DNA from: Planctomycetaceae bacterium
GTDB taxonomy: Bacteria > Planctomycetota > Planctomycetia > Planctomycetales > Planctomycetaceae
DNA: 64,000 bases
Assembly (NCBI GenBank): GCA_021732845.1
Contig: JAKFUF010000023.1
Coordinates: 1-64,000 of the forward strand
Reading direction: 5' to 3'
How positions within the stretch are numbered: the first letter of the stretch is position 1; every line of letters begins with the position of its first letter. Below are positions 23,837 through 50,292 of the stretch, piece by piece. The notes below the pieces were generated by a model. That model had not been told where the DNA came from. It did not search any database and saw nothing but the letters and a program-made list of their open reading frames with translations. A program made the position numbers and the translations under genes.

Positions 23837-25210
23837 ATGAGCACGAGCCATTTTTTCGCGATCGAAGAGGCCATTCTTGGCGGCCCCTGGGAACGCTCTG
23901 CCATCGAGGCGCGGCTCCGCACAATTCTGAAGCCGATCGGCCGGGCCACATGGGTCAAACCGATCACGCGGCGGGTGTGGATCACTTATGGAACTTCCGT
24001 CCTTCCGCCGCGCCGCCATCTGCTCCACCGCCTGCTCGTTCAGGACTACTGGATCCGCTTCAAACTGGCACGCTTGCAGGATGATTTAGACCAGATTGAA
24101 CCGGACCAGTTGTCGCTGCCCGACAGCCTCTTGCTCCCTCCGGCGGTCATGACCCCGGATCCGCGCCTCCCGCCGCTCGATATTCCTGCACTTCCCACCG
24201 GTGGCCAGCTTGCGGCGTGGCTCGACCTCACCCCCGGCGAAATGGACTGGTTCGCGGACCAGTTCGGCCAGGAGCGCCAGCGCCCCGCAGGACCGCTGCG
24301 GCACTACCGCTACTTGTGGAGAACCAAGAATTCCGGTGGCCTGCGGCTGTTGGAGAGTCCGAAGCCACGGCTCAAGACGATCCAGCGGGCGATTTTGGAT
24401 GGAATTCTGAGCCACATTCCGCCGCATGCCGCGGCCCATGCGTACCGATCCGGTCGCTCGGTCCGCACGGCTGTTGCACCGCACGCCGGCCAGCGGGTGG
24501 TGCTGCACGTTGACCTGCGGGAGTTTTTTCCGTCGATCACCGCGGCCCGAGTGTTCGCTGTGTATCGCACAGTAGGCTTTCCCGAGCGCGTGGCCCGCCT
24601 ATTGACCGGCCTGTGCACGAACTCCGTGCCGCACGACGTGTTGCGAACCTTGTATCCGCTCAACGCCGCCAGCCGGGCGACCGAGCGTCTGCACAGCCGG
24701 CCGCATCTGCCGCAGGGAGCACCGACATCGCCCACACTCGCCAATTTGTGCGCGTACCGCCTGGATGTGCGGCTGGCCGCTCTGGCACAAAGGACCGGAG
24801 CGGTTTACACGCGGTATGCCGACGACCTGGTCTTTTCCGGCGGACGCGAACTCCTGCGCATGCTGCCGCGCTTTCGAGTTCTCGTCTGCGCGATCGCCAT
24901 CGGCGAAGGGTTCGAGATTCGCCGCCGCAAGACACGCGTCATGGTCCGGGGAGGGAGGCAGCAACTCGCGGGAATCGTTGTGAACTCGCATCCCAACATC
25001 CCTCGGTCCGAGTTCGACGCGCTGAAGGCGCTGCTCTTCAACTGTATCCGGTTTGGACCCGGATCACAAAATCGCGATGAACATCCACACTTTCGCGAAC
25101 ATCTGCGGGGGCGGATTGCGTGGTGGGTGCAGGTCAATCCGGTCCGCGCCAAGAAGCTCAGCCTGTTGTTTGACAGGATCGTTTGGGACGAACCTTCAGC
25201 GGGCAAATGA
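23837..25210 (+). CDS. Retron-type reverse transcriptase with N-terminal extension
   Basis: A 457-aa RNA-directed DNA polymerase. RT motifs in order: RLLESPKPRLKTIQR (170-184), HVDLREFFPSI (224-234), LPQGAPTSPTLANL (291-304), the catalytic YADD (327-330), LAGIVVN (377-383), and the C-terminal HLRGRIAWWVQVNP typical of retron-like enzymes. AVAPH at 213-217 sits where retron RTs have NAxxH, and LAG where most have VTG. About 160 residues precede the RT core, as in myxobacterial long retron RTs; their function is unknown. AGGA directly precedes ATG 23837. No effector gene is adjacent: upstream is the efflux operon on the other strand, downstream a glycosidase. A DGR is unlikely (QGAPTSP, no Avd, no template/variable repeat seen). 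Confidence 0.9.
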   Translation: MSTSHFFAIEEAILGGPWERSAIEARLRTILKPIGRATWVKPITRRVWITYGTSVLPPRRHLLHRLLVQDYWIRFKLARLQDDLDQIEPDQLSLPDSLLLPPAVMTPDPRLPPLDIPALPTGGQLAAWLDLTPGEMDWFADQFGQERQRPAGPLRHYRYLWRTKNSGGLRLLESPKPRLKTIQRAILDGILSHIPPHAAAHAYRSGRSVRTAVAPHAGQRVVLHVDLREFFPSITAARVFAVYRTVGFPERVARLLTGLCTNSVPHDVLRTLYPLNAASRATERLHSRPHLPQGAPTSPTLANLCAYRLDVRLAALAQRTGAVYTRYADDLVFSGGRELLRMLPRFRVLVCAIAIGEGFEIRRRKTRVMVRGGRQQLAGIVVNSHPNIPRSEFDALKALLFNCIRFGPGSQNRDEHPHFREHLRGRIAWWVQVNPVRAKKLSLLFDRIVWDEPSAGK

Positions 25211-44088: not shown

Positions 44089-44664
44089 GTTCATCCCTGT
44101 TTGCGAATTCGACGAGGGGCGGAGTTCACCATCACTCCGGCCATACACGGGCCAAGCCCGGCCGCCGATTCTAAGCGTGCATGATTGCAGGGGTACAAGC
44201 AGCAGATCGCGGGCGACCACCGCCTTCAACAGGACGACGCAAGCACCTGCTCACGCCAGTCCACCCCGTGGCTTCGGAAGACTGAGTATCGAAGAATGAC
44301 CGGCGCGACGCAAGCACCCTGCACGATCTCACCAGTCCGGCCAGTTTTCGAGAAGTCAGGGATGAAAGCTCTTAGCCGGTGATGATGCGATCCTTGGTCG
44401 CTCGCAATCCACTCTCGCGGACACGCCGATGTGCCATAAACTGCGAATCGCCCAAATTTCCGCGAACGTATTCCAGCCTTGCTGTGTCATTCAATAACAT
44501 AGCGCGGTTGTGACGAAGGTGTTCCTCAAGCTTTCGCTCAGTTTCAGGAAGAGCCCGCTTGCGAGTCTGAGATGATGCGCACACCTCAATTCGATCGCAA
44601 ACAGAGCAACTGGAAACCACCATGAACCATCGGTCCAAAGATCCAACTGCCGTTTGGGACTACA

Positions 44665-44704
44665 CGTAACTATGACGGCCCTAAGGTAGCGATGTCGGGC
44701 GACC
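44665..44704 (+). pseudogene. 23S rRNA fragment (helix-71/I-CeuI-site region), internally deleted
   Basis: Positions 44665-44692 match the universally conserved 23S segment CGTAACTATGACGGCCCTAA plus GGTAGCGA. The next bases TGTCGGG and CGACC match the following 23S hairpin, but with two 7-nt pieces missing. Remnant or mimic; too short to be functional rRNA. Confidence 0.75.
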
Positions 44705-44868
44705 GACTAGTCAAGCGGTCCGAGTCTCTCGCAGACGAAGCCGCGTGTCCACTGTCAAACCCTGGTTTGATAAGGACGGCGTCTCAACACCCCCTCGTTG
44801 GATCCTGGATTTTTTGAAGACTTCCGCCGCGAGGCGGAGGCGGATTGACTGCCGGCTCGGAGTACAGG

Positions 44869-44910
44869 TTTGGGACCTCGTGGTCGTGGGTTCGAGTCCC
44901 ACCAGTCTCC
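44869..44910 (+). pseudogene. tRNA 3' part (tRNA-Pro-like)
   Basis: The sequence TTTGGGACC (loop like anticodon UGG) with variable TGGTC is followed by a perfect T-arm, GTGGG-TTCGAGT-CCCAC (44886-44902), and the acceptor strand CAGTCTCC (44903-44910). A matching 5' acceptor and D-arm are not present in normal form; GGATTGACTG at 44842 could pair only with a TT bulge. Confidence 0.6.
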
Positions 44911-44920
44911 CTTCACACAT

Positions 44921-44947
44921 GGAGGCTGTAGCTCAGTGGTAGAGCAC
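44921..44947 (+). pseudogene. tRNA 5' part (acceptor strand plus D-arm)
   Basis: GGAGGCTGTAGCTC then AGTGGTAGAGCAC is a standard tRNA 5' end with an intact D-arm (GCTC/GAGC). It breaks off before the anticodon arm into GGAAACCTCTGGCC. Its acceptor strand pairs (8 bp, one G-U) with the 3' acceptor strand lying 10 nt upstream, as expected for a captured tRNA-tRNA junction or a permuted order. Confidence 0.6.
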
Positions 44948-45090
44948 GGAAACCTCTGGCCATCCCTTCGTCAGTCCATTTTGAACAGCTTTGCAAGTTT
45001 CCGAAACACCACCAGCGGATCCGCGACAGGTGTGCCGGAATCTTGCGATATTTCTAGCGCAACACACTCGACTGCCGGTCTGGAGTCCAT

Positions 45091-45121
45091 GGTCTAGCTG
45101 GTTCGAATCCCGCCCGGCCCG
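45091..45121 (+). pseudogene. tRNA 3' part (second)
   Basis: GGTCTA followed by a T-arm GCTGG-TTCGAAT-CCCGC with one stem mismatch and the acceptor strand CGGCCCG. CGGGCCG, which could pair with it, appears at 45140-45146, again downstream instead of upstream. Confidence 0.55.
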
Positions 45122-45455
45122 AATCCCCGAAGCGGCCATCGGGCCGGAAACTCTGGCCACAACTTCGTCGAGGTTCTCGCATCAGCCAATGTGGCTTTCA
45201 TTTCCGATTATTGATGCTGTCACAAACGTGCTGCATTGCCCGGAACGGCGCGACAACCGTTGATCCCGGAGGAATCATGGTGAATGGTCGGGTGTCGAGC
45301 GGCTGAGGCGATGCCCCCGGATCGGACTGTTTTTGCGCCGCCGACAAGGTCGGGTGCGCGGCCGCCAGCCCGCCGCTTGGCTGGTTCGCTGTTGTTGGGC
45401 CGCTCCAACGCTTATTCTGCGTGTTCCCCTGGCCCGCGCGGAACTTGCAGTCTCC

Positions 45456-46679
45456 ATGAAAGACGCCTTCCTCAGCTACGTCGAAGAAGATGGTGATGTT
45501 GCGGGAATGCTTGCCCGTGAACTCGAAGCCTGTGGCTGCAGTGTCTGGCACTACCAGCGGGATGCGATTCCAGGATTGTCGTATTTGTCGCAGACTCGCC
45601 GGGCGATTGATGAAGCCCGGTGCTTCCTGTTTTTGATCTCCGCCACCTCCATTGAACGGCACTACCAGGTCGACAAGGAACTGGTTCATGCCCACGAAGT
45701 GGGCAAGCCGATCATCCCGCTGCTGCGGGACATTCGCTTTCGCAGCTTTCAGCAGGCACGCCCCGAGTGGGATCAGGCGATTGGCGCTGTCGTCGGCGTC
45801 GAGCTGTCCGTGGATACGACGAAGGCCGTCATCCCGCGGTTGATGCAGGGGTTGAGGTCACTGGGAATCGCGGTCGATTCCGCGGACAGCGAGCCGCCGC
45901 CAGTTTCGACCGCGGAATCTTTTACCGTGGAGGACATCGACGCCGGCGCGAACGATGACGACGGTTTCGAATCGGCCGCGTTCGAGAACTGCTTCGAAGT
46001 CGGAAACGCCGACGCGGTCACCGCCAAGGATTATCTTCCAGCCACGATCGTTCACGAACACCCGAAGACAGGCTTTCTGGCCGACGTTGTGGTGACAGAA
46101 ATCGATTCGAGCGACACGCTGCGAATCGGCTTTTCGCATGTCCTCTTGAAGGCCGATCCGCATGTCGTCGAATTTCAGCCGGGGAAGTCCCGCGATGCCC
46201 TGCAGTACTTCCGCTTTCCCGATCTGATCCACGGATATCCGGTCGTTCTGCGGCTGCATTGGCTGACCCGGCTGCCGAAATGGTCCACGTTTGTGCAGAC
46301 TTTCGGAGTGACAACCGCGCCGGCAGTGCGCATTCGCCACACCGTCCAGGACGTGTTCAACGAAGACGCCGTGGGGATGCTCGTGAAGGGCAAGTTCAAA
46401 CTCATGATTGAACCCGGCCAGCAGTTGCCGAACACGCAAAGAAAAAGTCTCCGGACCCGGCACGACAGCCAGAATTCGATCAGCGTCATCCCCGCCGTTC
46501 GCCGCGCCGATGGAGAAGTGCAGATTTTTCCGAAGCTCAAGATCACCGTGCCGCCAGCTCCGGCGGGTGTCGCCTGGCTGGAATTCGTCTTTCACATCGA
46601 TCCTGACGGGCGCTTTACCGTTTCCGCGCGGGATCCACTCCACGCGTTGAAAATTCGGGATCTGATCATCGTCCAATGA
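45456..46679 (+). CDS. TIR-domain protein with Hsp70 substrate-binding-like C-terminus
   Basis: A 407-aa protein. Residues 1-135 are a TIR domain: DAFLSYVEEDGDVAGMLAREL, CSVWHYQRDAIPG, ARCFLFLISATS, and VDKELVHAH with the candidate NADase Glu (E75), then GKPIIPLL. An acidic linker (150-175) and an unassigned region (175-305) follow. Residues about 308-400 match the beta-sandwich substrate-binding domain of DnaK/Hsp70: GKFKLMIEPGQQLPNTQRKS, DSQNSISV, LKITVPPAPAGVAWLEFVFH and IDPDGRFTVSARD, while the ATPase domain is absent. ATG 45456 is preferred to the frame's first codon at 45333, since the TIR fold starts there. The neighbouring downstream gene is convergent, so the protein appears to act alone. 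The role is inferred: NAD-consuming or signalling TIR gated by a peptide-binding sensor. Confidence 0.82.
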   Translation: MKDAFLSYVEEDGDVAGMLARELEACGCSVWHYQRDAIPGLSYLSQTRRAIDEARCFLFLISATSIERHYQVDKELVHAHEVGKPIIPLLRDIRFRSFQQARPEWDQAIGAVVGVELSVDTTKAVIPRLMQGLRSLGIAVDSADSEPPPVSTAESFTVEDIDAGANDDDGFESAAFENCFEVGNADAVTAKDYLPATIVHEHPKTGFLADVVVTEIDSSDTLRIGFSHVLLKADPHVVEFQPGKSRDALQYFRFPDLIHGYPVVLRLHWLTRLPKWSTFVQTFGVTTAPAVRIRHTVQDVFNEDAVGMLVKGKFKLMIEPGQQLPNTQRKSLRTRHDSQNSISVIPAVRRADGEVQIFPKLKITVPPAPAGVAWLEFVFHIDPDGRFTVSARDPLHALKIRDLIIVQ

Positions 46680-46693
46680 TCATTTTTGAGTGG

Positions 46694-47857
46694 TCATCTT
46701 CCGGCGAGGACCGCCTGATAGATTTCCCGTAAGCGGCGCGTCATGGTCTGGTGGCGAAACTGGTCGGTGAACCGCGCGCGGCCGGTGAGTCCCAGACGCT
46801 CGCGCAAGGCCGCGTCGCCGGCCAGCTCCAGGATCGCCCGGGCCATGCCGTCGATGGAATGCGGCGGCAGCAGGTAGCCGGTCTCGCCGGGAATGGCCAC
46901 TTCGCGGGCACCATCCACGTCGTAGGTGACGACGGGCTTGCCGGCAATCAGCCCCTGCGGAAGCACCCGTGCGAGGCCTTCGCGGAGGCTGGCATGGACC
47001 ACGATGTCCATCGCCCCCACCAGTTCCGGAACGCGTTCGGGGGGCACGAGGCCGGTAAACACAAAATGCTCGCTCAGACCGGCCGCGGCGATTTCGCGCT
47101 GCAATTCCTCCCGCAGGAGACCGTCACCGACAAACAGGAACCGCAGGTTCGGACATCGGGGGACCGCTTGGCGGGCGGCGGCGATCACGTCGGCGTGGCC
47201 CTTCAGTTCAAACAACCGCGCGATCTTGCCGACCACAATCTGGTCGTCTGTGAACCCCAGGTCACTGCGGATCTCGGCCCGTGGGCGAGGTGGATTGAGA
47301 AATGGCTCGACCTCCATGCCGCTGTAGACGGTCACGAACATCTCACGCGGAGCCACGCCGGCGCGCACATACTGGTCGGTCATGGCGTCGCAGACGCTGA
47401 TGAGTTTGTCACAGCGCCGCGCGGCCCAGGTTTCGGCCAACCGGTAGAGGTGATATGCGGTGCGGCTTTGGTAGGGATGAAACGGCGAACCGTGAACGGT
47501 ATGAACGCACGCAATGCCAAGTTTCTTGGCCGCCGCCCGCCCCAGAATTCCCGCCTTCGAACTGTGGGTATGCACCATTTCCGGGCGCAGCTCACGCAGG
47601 GCACGGACCAGTTCGCGGTAGCTGGTCCAGTCGCGCCAGGGATGCAGATTGCGGCGCAGCGCGGGGACCAGCCGGACTTTGATCTGACTGGCTTGCGCGC
47701 GCTCCAGCAGGCTTCCCTCGGGACCCAGCGCGGGGCCGGTGAGCAGCGTCACATCGTCGCCGTAATCCCGTTGCTGGTCTTCAAGGGTCAGCAGCGTGTT
47801 TTCCTGAGCCCCGCCGAGAATCATCCGCGTGATGATATGGACGACTTTCAAACTCAT
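46694..47857 (-). CDS. Glycosyltransferase family 4-type
   Basis: A 387-aa GT-B enzyme. The N-terminal acceptor domain begins VVHIITRMILGGAQENTL. VHTHSSKAGILGRAAAKKLG and VHTVHGSPFH follow. The C-terminal nucleotide-sugar domain has VGKIARLFELKGHADVIAAA, LRFLFVGDGLLREEL and the EGLARVLPQGLIAGKPVV segment with the E-x7-E motif altered. It probably adds a sugar to a cell-surface glycan or lipid. ATG 47857 overlaps the upstream gene's stop as ATGA, so translation is likely coupled. The frame's upstream 122 codons are the other gene's shadow. Confidence 0.92.
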   Translation of the reverse strand: MSLKVVHIITRMILGGAQENTLLTLEDQQRDYGDDVTLLTGPALGPEGSLLERAQASQIKVRLVPALRRNLHPWRDWTSYRELVRALRELRPEMVHTHSSKAGILGRAAAKKLGIACVHTVHGSPFHPYQSRTAYHLYRLAETWAARRCDKLISVCDAMTDQYVRAGVAPREMFVTVYSGMEVEPFLNPPRPRAEIRSDLGFTDDQIVVGKIARLFELKGHADVIAAARQAVPRCPNLRFLFVGDGLLREELQREIAAAGLSEHFVFTGLVPPERVPELVGAMDIVVHASLREGLARVLPQGLIAGKPVVTYDVDGAREVAIPGETGYLLPPHSIDGMARAILELAGDAALRERLGLTGRARFTDQFRHQTMTRRLREIYQAVLAGR

Positions 47858-50292
47858 TCGACGACTTTCAATGGCAGCGTGGCTTCGCTGATGACCTGCA
47901 CGCCATCCGCCATCGTGCCAATCGCGCGGAACTTCAACTGTCTTAGAGCGGGTTGCCTGGCTCCCGCGGGCGAAGCAGCAAACGCATCTGCCGCCAGGTT
48001 GACCACGATTTCTCCGCTCGTCGCGCCCTCGGGGATGCTCACAGGTTTCGCGGAGATTCCTGATGCGGCATCCGGTTCGACAAGCTGCACCTGCATCGGT
48101 CCGCTGAAGTGGGACGTGCGGTCCAAAGCCACGCGGCAGGTGATCTCCGCGCCGCGCTTCGCCACAAGTTCCCGCTCCACCGTCCGCAGCTTCGCCACCG
48201 TGGGAAGTGTGCGGATCATGCACCGCATGGTCGAGACCACCAGCAGGGTTTGTTTTTGCCCGTGCTTGTCAACGAATTCCACATCCCCCTGGGCATAGAC
48301 ATTGGAATGTGCCTGAACATTGATGTGCATTGTTTCCGGCAGGTAGACCGGCAGCATGAACTGCGATTGCTCCGGTTTGACCGTGGTGTCGACCAGTTCG
48401 ATGCCGTCCAGATCCTTGATCTGCCGGTCGGCCACCTGCAGGCGGATCGGTCCGGCAAAACCGTCCAGCCGCTCGACCTCCATCAGGTAGGGATAGACCG
48501 TGCCACGGTGGGCGTACTGGTACGCCTCGTTGCAGTACAGCTTGAAGACCGGCTTGTGCATCACGGTCAGTTGCACATTGTCGATGGTTGTGGGGCCGAG
48601 GCCCACGCCGTCGGCATCGTGCCCCAGGTGCGTGGCTGCCGCCACGCGCTCCACCGGCTTGCCGGCAATTTCAGCGACACCCGTGATCGTCAGCGTGACA
48701 TCCTGCGAACGGGCGTCGGCATCGGCAATCAGTGCGAGCCGCGCGGTCTCCTGCCCGGGAGCCACCTGCTGGCCCTCGATCTTGAATCCTTCCGGGAGCC
48801 CCTGCACCTTGAGTTCCAGCGGGCCGTTGAAGCCGCCGCGGCGCTCGACCGCCACCTCCAGATCCGCCCGACCGCCCTGAACAACATTGGCGACATCACT
48901 CTTAAGAAACAGCGAAAAGTCGGGAGTCGCCGGCCGCACGCCGAGGCGATAGATGAATTCCGGTCCGCCGCGGACGCCCTGCTGCAGGTCGCGCACGCGG
49001 ATGCGGTAGTCGCCATCGGCGGGCGGTGCCCATTCGATGCGGATTGAGCCACGCGGGGTTTGGACGGCACTGAGATGCGCCAGCGGACCGCCGTTGATGT
49101 CCGTCACCGTGACGATCGGCAGTGCGGGCGACCAGCGCGGGACGGTCACGCATTCGATGGTCAGGGGCGTGTCTTTGCGGGCAGCCAGGCGGTACCAGTC
49201 GTCGTCGGTCTTCGACTGGAATTGCCCGTTCATCGTCAGCGGCCAGGCCAGTTCGGTCGCGGTCTCCTTCGTGTCATTGCCTTCGGTTTCGATGGCCTCG
49301 GGCAGGTCGCCGACGGTAAAGGGCAAAGCATTCATGCCGGTCTGTGCCGTGAGCCACTGCTCACCCAGCGCCGTTGGCAGAACCAGTTGTTCAGGCAGCG
49401 GGAACAGCGTTCCCTCGCCCGACAGCGTAAAGCAATTTGTCTTCAGTGCTGCTCCCGCCGTGCCCCCGGCCGGAAACGCAAAGTGCGCGAAAGGAGCCGT
49501 CGAGATCGTGACTCGGTAGACGTAGGACGGACCGCCATGAAAATTGACATTTGAGACCAGCAACCGGTACTCACCGGGACTGACGACCTTGTAGGCCAGC
49601 ACCGGATCGGCCCCCACGCGGACTTCGTCCACCGCCACCCTGCTGCCGTTCGGCCCGTACAGTTCGATCACCGGATCGAGCGCGGAACCGAGCCGCGCGG
49701 CGACCATGTCAACACGCACCAGGTCGCCTGGTTGAGCGTCAAAACTGTAGTAGTCGAGATCGCTCTCGCCCGCGATCTGTCCGTTGATCGTCACCGGGAG
49801 GGTGACCTTTTGAGCCTCGTGGGGGCGGGAATTGGGTTCGGTTTCGATGAACTCCGGCAAGTCACCAACGATGAACGGTCGGCCGCCAGTCCCACCCCGC
49901 GCGCAACTGAGCCTCCAGAGTTTGGCCCCCAACGGTGCCTCGGCCCCAATCTCAATCTGCGACTGCCACTCGCGGACGTAAGTGATGGGTAACTCCGTCG
50001 GCTTGCGCCGCGGCGAGGGTGCATAGTCCCCCGCGGTCGCCGGTCCGAGTTCGAGCGGAGCGCTGACCCCCGCGCCCCACAGGCGAAACCGCGAATGCGG
50101 CGGCAGGCACTCGCTGCCCACCCGCACATCGACCTTTGATCCGCGCCGGCCACCGGCGGGGAAGATGTGCGTGCTGGTGGGATCCGTCGGCACCTGTTGA
50201 GCCACCGCGCAATTCTGAAACCCAAGTCCCAAGAGCGCGGTACACAGGAGGACAATGGAGAGGCGGCGGGACGGGGCAATGGCACCAAACAT
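47854..50292 (-). CDS. Secreted PPC-domain (pre-peptidase C-terminal) protein
   Basis: An 812-aa exported protein with a signal peptide (LSIVLLCTALLGLGFQNCAVAQ). At least two PPC-type beta-sandwich domains are visible: INGQIAGESDLDYYSFDAQPGD and MNGQFQSKTDDDWYRLAARKDTP, each preceded by FIVGDLPEFIETEPN or FTVGDLPEAIETEGN. The C-terminal half is beta-rich with Ig-like character. Planctomycetes encode many such proteins, with no known catalysis. GGGAG lies 8 nt before ATG 50292 (an in-frame TTG precedes it). It is coupled by ATGA to the glycosyltransferase downstream. Confidence 0.85.
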   Translation of the reverse strand: MFGAIAPSRRLSIVLLCTALLGLGFQNCAVAQQVPTDPTSTHIFPAGGRRGSKVDVRVGSECLPPHSRFRLWGAGVSAPLELGPATAGDYAPSPRRKPTELPITYVREWQSQIEIGAEAPLGAKLWRLSCARGGTGGRPFIVGDLPEFIETEPNSRPHEAQKVTLPVTINGQIAGESDLDYYSFDAQPGDLVRVDMVAARLGSALDPVIELYGPNGSRVAVDEVRVGADPVLAYKVVSPGEYRLLVSNVNFHGGPSYVYRVTISTAPFAHFAFPAGGTAGAALKTNCFTLSGEGTLFPLPEQLVLPTALGEQWLTAQTGMNALPFTVGDLPEAIETEGNDTKETATELAWPLTMNGQFQSKTDDDWYRLAARKDTPLTIECVTVPRWSPALPIVTVTDINGGPLAHLSAVQTPRGSIRIEWAPPADGDYRIRVRDLQQGVRGGPEFIYRLGVRPATPDFSLFLKSDVANVVQGGRADLEVAVERRGGFNGPLELKVQGLPEGFKIEGQQVAPGQETARLALIADADARSQDVTLTITGVAEIAGKPVERVAAATHLGHDADGVGLGPTTIDNVQLTVMHKPVFKLYCNEAYQYAHRGTVYPYLMEVERLDGFAGPIRLQVADRQIKDLDGIELVDTTVKPEQSQFMLPVYLPETMHINVQAHSNVYAQGDVEFVDKHGQKQTLLVVSTMRCMIRTLPTVAKLRTVERELVAKRGAEITCRVALDRTSHFSGPMQVQLVEPDAASGISAKPVSIPEGATSGEIVVNLAADAFAASPAGARQPALRQLKFRAIGTMADGVQVISEATLPLKVVE

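Follow-up and report, generated by a model that had tools for sequence, protein, structure and literature searches.

Introduction

SpbK of Bacillus subtilis unites a TIR enzyme and a sensing part in a single protein; clustering on a phage portal, a dodecamer, is reported to activate it (PMC12847820). TIR effectors of other conflict systems are fused or adjacent to proposed ligand-sensing modules (available sections of PMC10907252 and PMC7159879), including FGE, a C-lectin fold proposed as a sensor (PMC10907252, in the sections at hand). Hsp70 machinery has also been tied to conflict systems: GTPase-centred systems, as far as the accessible part of PMC7159879 describes them, carry separate genes for full-length or ATPase-only Hsp70s, GrpE and DnaJ, and the same part describes inactive versions of cellular enzymes in conflict systems, with a proposed role as decoys. 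An Hsp70 substrate-binding-like domain outside DnaK occurs in FAP363, a 391 amino acid chain of Chlamydomonas doublet microtubules.

Here we describe a planctomycete gene encoding a TIR domain, a middle region and an Hsp70-type beta substrate-binding domain (SBD-beta, or SBD) in one polypeptide. It lies in a 64,000-nucleotide stretch of a Planctomycetaceae contig (the window), to whose first letter all positions refer. The fusion is real and apparently new to the literature; as originally predicted, no system with this pair appears to have been described, in that the open-access literature searched yielded no TIR-Hsp70 or TIR-DnaK fusion in bacteria. The closest working analogy would be SpbK or another single-protein TIR defence, equipped with a different sensor: the sensing part here would be an Hsp70 SBD-beta, and the likeness rests on working principle, not on sensor homology (SpbK as presented in the available sections of its source). 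With the FGE/C-lectin conflict systems the protein shares a TIR subfamily, some members of which have an FGE C-terminus; however, no DGR, vWA-MoxR or STAND partner was found near the gene, and the available sections of PMC10907252 and PMC7159879 hold no SBD module that we could find. Whereas GTPase-centred systems encode Hsp70 components separately, here the SBD alone is joined to TIR, and unlike the protein studied here FAP363 is a structural cilium protein without a TIR domain.

The domain resembles the SBD of Hsp70/DnaK in sequence core, predicted fold and most hydrophobic cleft positions, but lacks the ATPase and the lid, and has changed coupling residues, an arginine in the arch and a two-residue deletion. 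The protein is not an Hsp70 chaperone, since both ATPase and lid are absent. Nor can it be assigned to any catalogued TIR defence system: the Pfam-scanned neighbours do not include the adjacent short Argonaute gene that marks SPARTA (TIR-APAZ/short pAgo), and PADLOC returned only partial matches to the TIR region for Thoeris, CBASS and other catalogued TIR systems (best E 7e-5).

Results

Gene structure and TIR domain

The gene and its parts are as follows.

45456..46679, plus strand: gene for TIR domain, middle region and Hsp70 SBD-beta; ATG at 45456 to stop at 46679, 407 amino acids, complete
45456..45875, plus strand: TIR domain, residues 1-140, with box 1 FLSY and BB-loop RDAIPG (PF13676, AlphaFold2 model, fold matches)
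45678..45680, plus strand: Glu75 codon, candidate catalytic glutamate (alignment with the Glu of SARM1 WVHKE)
45876..46370, plus strand: residues 141-305, linker and beta-rich stretch (pLDDT mostly below 50)
46371..46643, plus strand: Hsp70 SBD-beta-like domain, residues ~306-396 (profile, PDB and fold matches)

The predicted coordinates, 45456-46679 on the plus strand, hold for the full 407 codons. Codon log-odds are +0.38 per codon in the gene frame, against about -0.5 in the other plus-strand frames and +0.17 in the best antisense frame, and native codon usage is uniform across TIR domain, linker and SBD; because this usage is even along the whole frame, the sequence represents one gene rather than a frame artefact. 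An alternative TTG start at 45333 would add 41 residues upstream; the TIR domain begins right at the ATG.

Pfam TIR_2 (PF13676) matches residues 5-94 at E 1.8e-14 (54.7 bits, cut-off 28). In a full-length AlphaFold2 model built with seven TIR relatives and no Hsp70 sequences (model 1), pLDDT is 92-95 for residues 1-60 and 73-92 for the remaining domain, and the modelled fold matches the TIR domains of SPARTA (Z 18.9, rmsd 2.5, 143 residues), SARM1 (Z 18.2, rmsd 2.1, 130 residues) and AbTir (Z 16.8, rmsd 2.3, 129 residues). Glu75, in QVDKELVHA, is paired by phmmer with the glutamate of SARM1 WVHKEIVTA, which we take to be the catalytic residue E642; it is invariant in an eight-sequence alignment and replaced by Gln in one further relative. 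By this alignment Glu75 occupies the position of the SARM1 catalytic glutamate, and the TIR fold together with this residue makes NADase activity of the protein likely. The original prediction, which had placed a TIR domain with a candidate catalytic glutamate at residues 1-135, is thus sustained, with the domain drawn at residues 1-140; the possibility that Glu75 lies away from the TIR active site runs against the SARM1 alignment.

The middle region opens with an acidic, probably disordered linker (residues ~141-190), followed by a beta-rich stretch (residues 191-305) modelled with low confidence; no relatives of the region were found in 392 phylum genomes. It includes a hydrophobic-basic segment, VVLRLHWLTRLPKW, which, with its hydrophobic core and basic flanks, presumably looks like a DnaK binding site and might serve the SBD as a ligand from its own chain.

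Hsp70 SBD-beta domain

Pfam HSP70 (PF00012) reaches only 15.7 bits (E 0.0045), under its cut-off of 20.6, so that the domain would go unannotated by the Pfam rule alone. Other comparisons also point to Hsp70: the SBD of Hsc70 in the PDB is matched with the whole protein as query (E 2e-4), that of a mitochondrial Hsp70 with the fragment as query (E 1.7e-5), and NCBIfam DnaK families match the same region (E 5e-4). A control profile of 26 DnaK SBDs from viral contigs scores the protein at 28.6 bits, versus 9.2 for the best of 2000 shuffles, and all other ORFs of the window at 4.6 bits or less. Judged from these scores, the homology to Hsp70 is beyond chance. No rival beta-sandwich family was found for residues 306-396, the better matches being Hsp70 SBDs throughout, and an alternative assignment of this kind, entertained at the outset, has fallen away; VIA fold lists were taken up entirely with TIR or Hsp70 chains, and the absence of other folds from them is uninformative.

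Model 1, built without Hsp70 sequences, places strands at residues 341-344, 347-349, 355-357, 361-364, 376-381 and 387-392. A second model, given DnaK relatives, places them at 339-349, 355-357, 361-368, 374-381 and 387-392, with pLDDT of 80-89 across most of the SBD, a confidence that stems in part from the DnaK alignment supplied; it matches an Hsp70 SBD with Z 12.4 and rmsd 2.2 over 102 residues. Because the core strands are present in both models, they are independent of the DnaK alignment. At ~30% identity to DnaK, the domain keeps the sequence core VPPAPAGV and FHIDPDGRFTVSARD. The ATPase is missing, as had been noticed from the sequence: PF00012 matches at profile positions 399-486 only, and residues 1-140 are TIR. 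The helical lid is absent as well, the protein stopping ~11 residues past the SBD match. Profile and structure comparisons, both proposed with the original prediction of a DnaK beta-domain at residues ~308-400, agree with it and refine it, the match ending near residues 394-396.

For the cleft, we used the E. coli DnaK sequence and the cleft and coupling roles that we take its residues to have. Five cleft positions map as I401 to Met308, M404 to Val310, F426 to Leu332, V436 to Ile342 and V440 to Val344; all five are still hydrophobic, and most of the hydrophobic pocket therefore survives. The arch position A429 corresponds to Arg335, and there is a two-residue gap near I438, changes that could close or reshape the cleft. 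Positions coupling the SBD to the ATPase are altered (K414 to Pro320, R467 to Ala370), as expected with the ATPase gone. This pattern suggests a peptide-binding domain freed from ATP control.

Distribution and TIR relatives

A second TIR-SBD protein was found neither in 99 relatives nor, from the C-terminal part, in 392 phylum genomes, nor in viral contigs, plasmids and phages, nor in an 84,980-species collection, where the few short patterns used could be escaped by diverged copies. The architecture was found in this one genome and in no other of ~1,000 relatives (overlapping sets), and the survey across planctomycetes suggested by the original prediction returned no second example in the relatives searched. 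Two proteins of similar size (366 and 361 amino acids, in G516 and G725) had been candidate orthologues and were rejected as TIR-DinB proteins; a Shinella match over residues 264-393 proved to be an ordinary DnaK.

The TIR subfamily itself was searched in 170 family genomes, in the phylum set (matches at E 1e-20 in 5 of 392 genomes) and in the class set (matches in 12 of 397), three sets that overlap. Its commoner C-terminus is a P-loop ATPase-like form with kinase; examples of the ATPase-like form, with or without an N-terminal kinase, are L031-L034, L101-L107, L128, L217 and L268-L270, this C-terminus being read from sequence, as Pfam names none. Other relatives end in DinB (L100/L124 and L267, two genomes), FGE-sulfatase (L129, and L130 alike), Lcl_C (L125) or, as read from sequence, a membrane helix followed by a TPR-like region (L218). 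These varied C-termini mark the TIR subfamily as a module with exchangeable partners, of which the SBD is one.

Genomic context and host Hsp70 proteins

A glycosyltransferase gene (46694-48223, minus strand) converges with the TIR-SBD gene, and the genes around it that were scanned with Pfam are of kinds usual in planctomycetes (DUF1501, PSCyt, PEPCK, oxidoreductase, cytochrome c assembly). No partner gene or defence island was seen among them, and no mobile element was recognised around the gene; the look for nearby defence islands proposed with the original prediction showed metabolic neighbours here. At a distance of 20 kb, the window also encodes a reverse transcriptase of the defence-associated kind (23837-25210, plus strand, 457 amino acids; PADLOC RT_other, E 2e-150); the ORF after it, of 723 amino acids, has no Pfam match.

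The host genome encodes at least nine Hsp70-type proteins, namely DnaK and at least eight divergent ones. The SBD matches the canonical DnaK of the host (E 1.4e-6) and none of the divergent paralogues; derivation from the latter was ruled out, canonical DnaK being the sole match. The divergent Hsp70s lie on contigs C52, C5, C69, C42, C88, C140, C41 and C71 of the host genome, G000 (L247-L254); in one, ATPase and SBD are separated by a long insert of low complexity, and two appear to stop shortly past the SBD.

Upstream of the gene lies a further feature.

44637..45175, plus strand: Y RNA-like (YrlA-like) array of three tandem units, 280 nt before the ATG

Unit 2 scores 40.1 bits with Rfam YrlA (E 1e-6, gathering score 69) and has a permuted tRNA-like fold; within unit 1, 27 nt are a copy of 23S rRNA sequence, differing at one position from the 23S of relatives. 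An origin as tRNA and rRNA debris was ruled out by comparison with relatives, which reveals a Y RNA-like array that is conserved: G030 carries the block at 82% identity, G032, G073 and G081 have related units, and across six aligned units 18 of 42 predicted pairs show a compensatory change. A Ro60 gene (TROVE and vWA_Ro60) lies within ~3 kb of the array in all four of these relatives, directly downstream in three, so the TIR-SBD gene occupies the place of Ro60 here, perhaps by coincidence, given that there is one example. The sole Ro60 gene found in the host genome is on a different contig, with no array detected alongside.

A palindromic repeat (core CACCAGCGGATCCGCGACAGGTGTGCCGG) sits at ~44985-45053, between units 2 and 3; it has ~40 further copies in the genome and is missing at the same position in G030. 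A solo fourth Y RNA-like unit (G000:C6:103954-104090; L116, L275) fits the full YrlA model at 40.8 bits, and no Ro60 gene was noticed alongside it.

Discussion

The reading that we place first, tentatively, likens the protein to SpbK and makes it a TIR effector that carries its own peptide sensor, one that works independently of ATP. SBD-beta would bind hydrophobic peptide segments in extended form and exchange them fast and without ATP; single ligands would hold it weakly, while multivalent ligands, such as a protein that has unfolded or aggregated, or a phage assembly of repeated protein, would gather several copies of the protein. Such clustering would allow the TIR domains to assemble and cleave NAD+, and cell growth would stop. 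The wider TIR subfamily may reuse the same plan with other C-terminal modules. The sensor reading, which the original prediction had raised for unfolded or phage proteins, plausibly fits the anatomy, with a cleft mostly kept, coupling residues changed and interchangeable C-termini in sister proteins. Against it stand the occurrence in one genome, the metabolic neighbours, the lack of a partner gene, Arg335 in the arch and the gap near I438, as well as the missing lid, which would make peptide binding weak. The fuller proposition, that a motorless Hsp70 peptide-binding domain gates the TIR enzyme as an immune or suicide switch reading exposed hydrophobic peptide free of ATP, is doubtful.

Next in order of likelihood, though unlikely, is control by self-binding, in which the SBD would hold its own chain (for example VVLRLHWLTRLPKW) or a neighbouring copy and so govern TIR assembly, another signal releasing it. 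The presumed resemblance of that middle-region segment to DnaK binding sites favours this arrangement, but the region is modelled with low confidence. Control by oligomerisation is a precedent among TIR enzymes such as SpbK (PMC12847820, available sections). Quite unlikely, and third in order, the SBD could be an integrated decoy that mimics cellular DnaK, so that a phage protein seizing DnaK would bind it and trigger TIR; the closeness of the SBD to canonical DnaK rather than to the divergent paralogues speaks for this, as do the DinB C-termini of sister proteins, likewise copied cellular modules, and the inactive enzyme copies proposed as decoys in the available part of PMC7159879. However, only SBD-beta was copied, at ~30% identity, and the surfaces that an SBD forms together with the ATPase domain are missing.

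An improbable alternative makes the protein a housekeeping regulator of stress or cell death that would sense heat or proteotoxic stress and lower NAD+ or produce a cyclic ADP-ribose signal. Its setting among metabolic genes, outside any defence island, and the presence of eight or more Hsp70-type proteins in addition to DnaK agree with such a role, yet the singleton architecture and the patchy TIR subfamily (12 of 397 class genomes) look more conflict-like. Least probable of all is that the fusion arose recently by chance and serves no selected function, or that the gene is decaying: the architecture was found once and the SBD has diverged to a Pfam score under the cut-off, but 407 codons are open with uniform native usage, the TIR motifs and SBD core strands are intact, and an SBD only ~30% identical to DnaK is no fresh copy.

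If the anatomy alone is right, the protein still adds a domain pairing not described before, and one more sign that C-terminal modules are swapped within this TIR subfamily. If the sensor reading is also true, a general detector of unfolded protein would be wired directly to a TIR effector, bringing proteostasis and immunity together in one polypeptide; guard and decoy models would become testable with well-characterised DnaK peptides, and SBD-beta could act as a free-standing, ATP-independent binding module.
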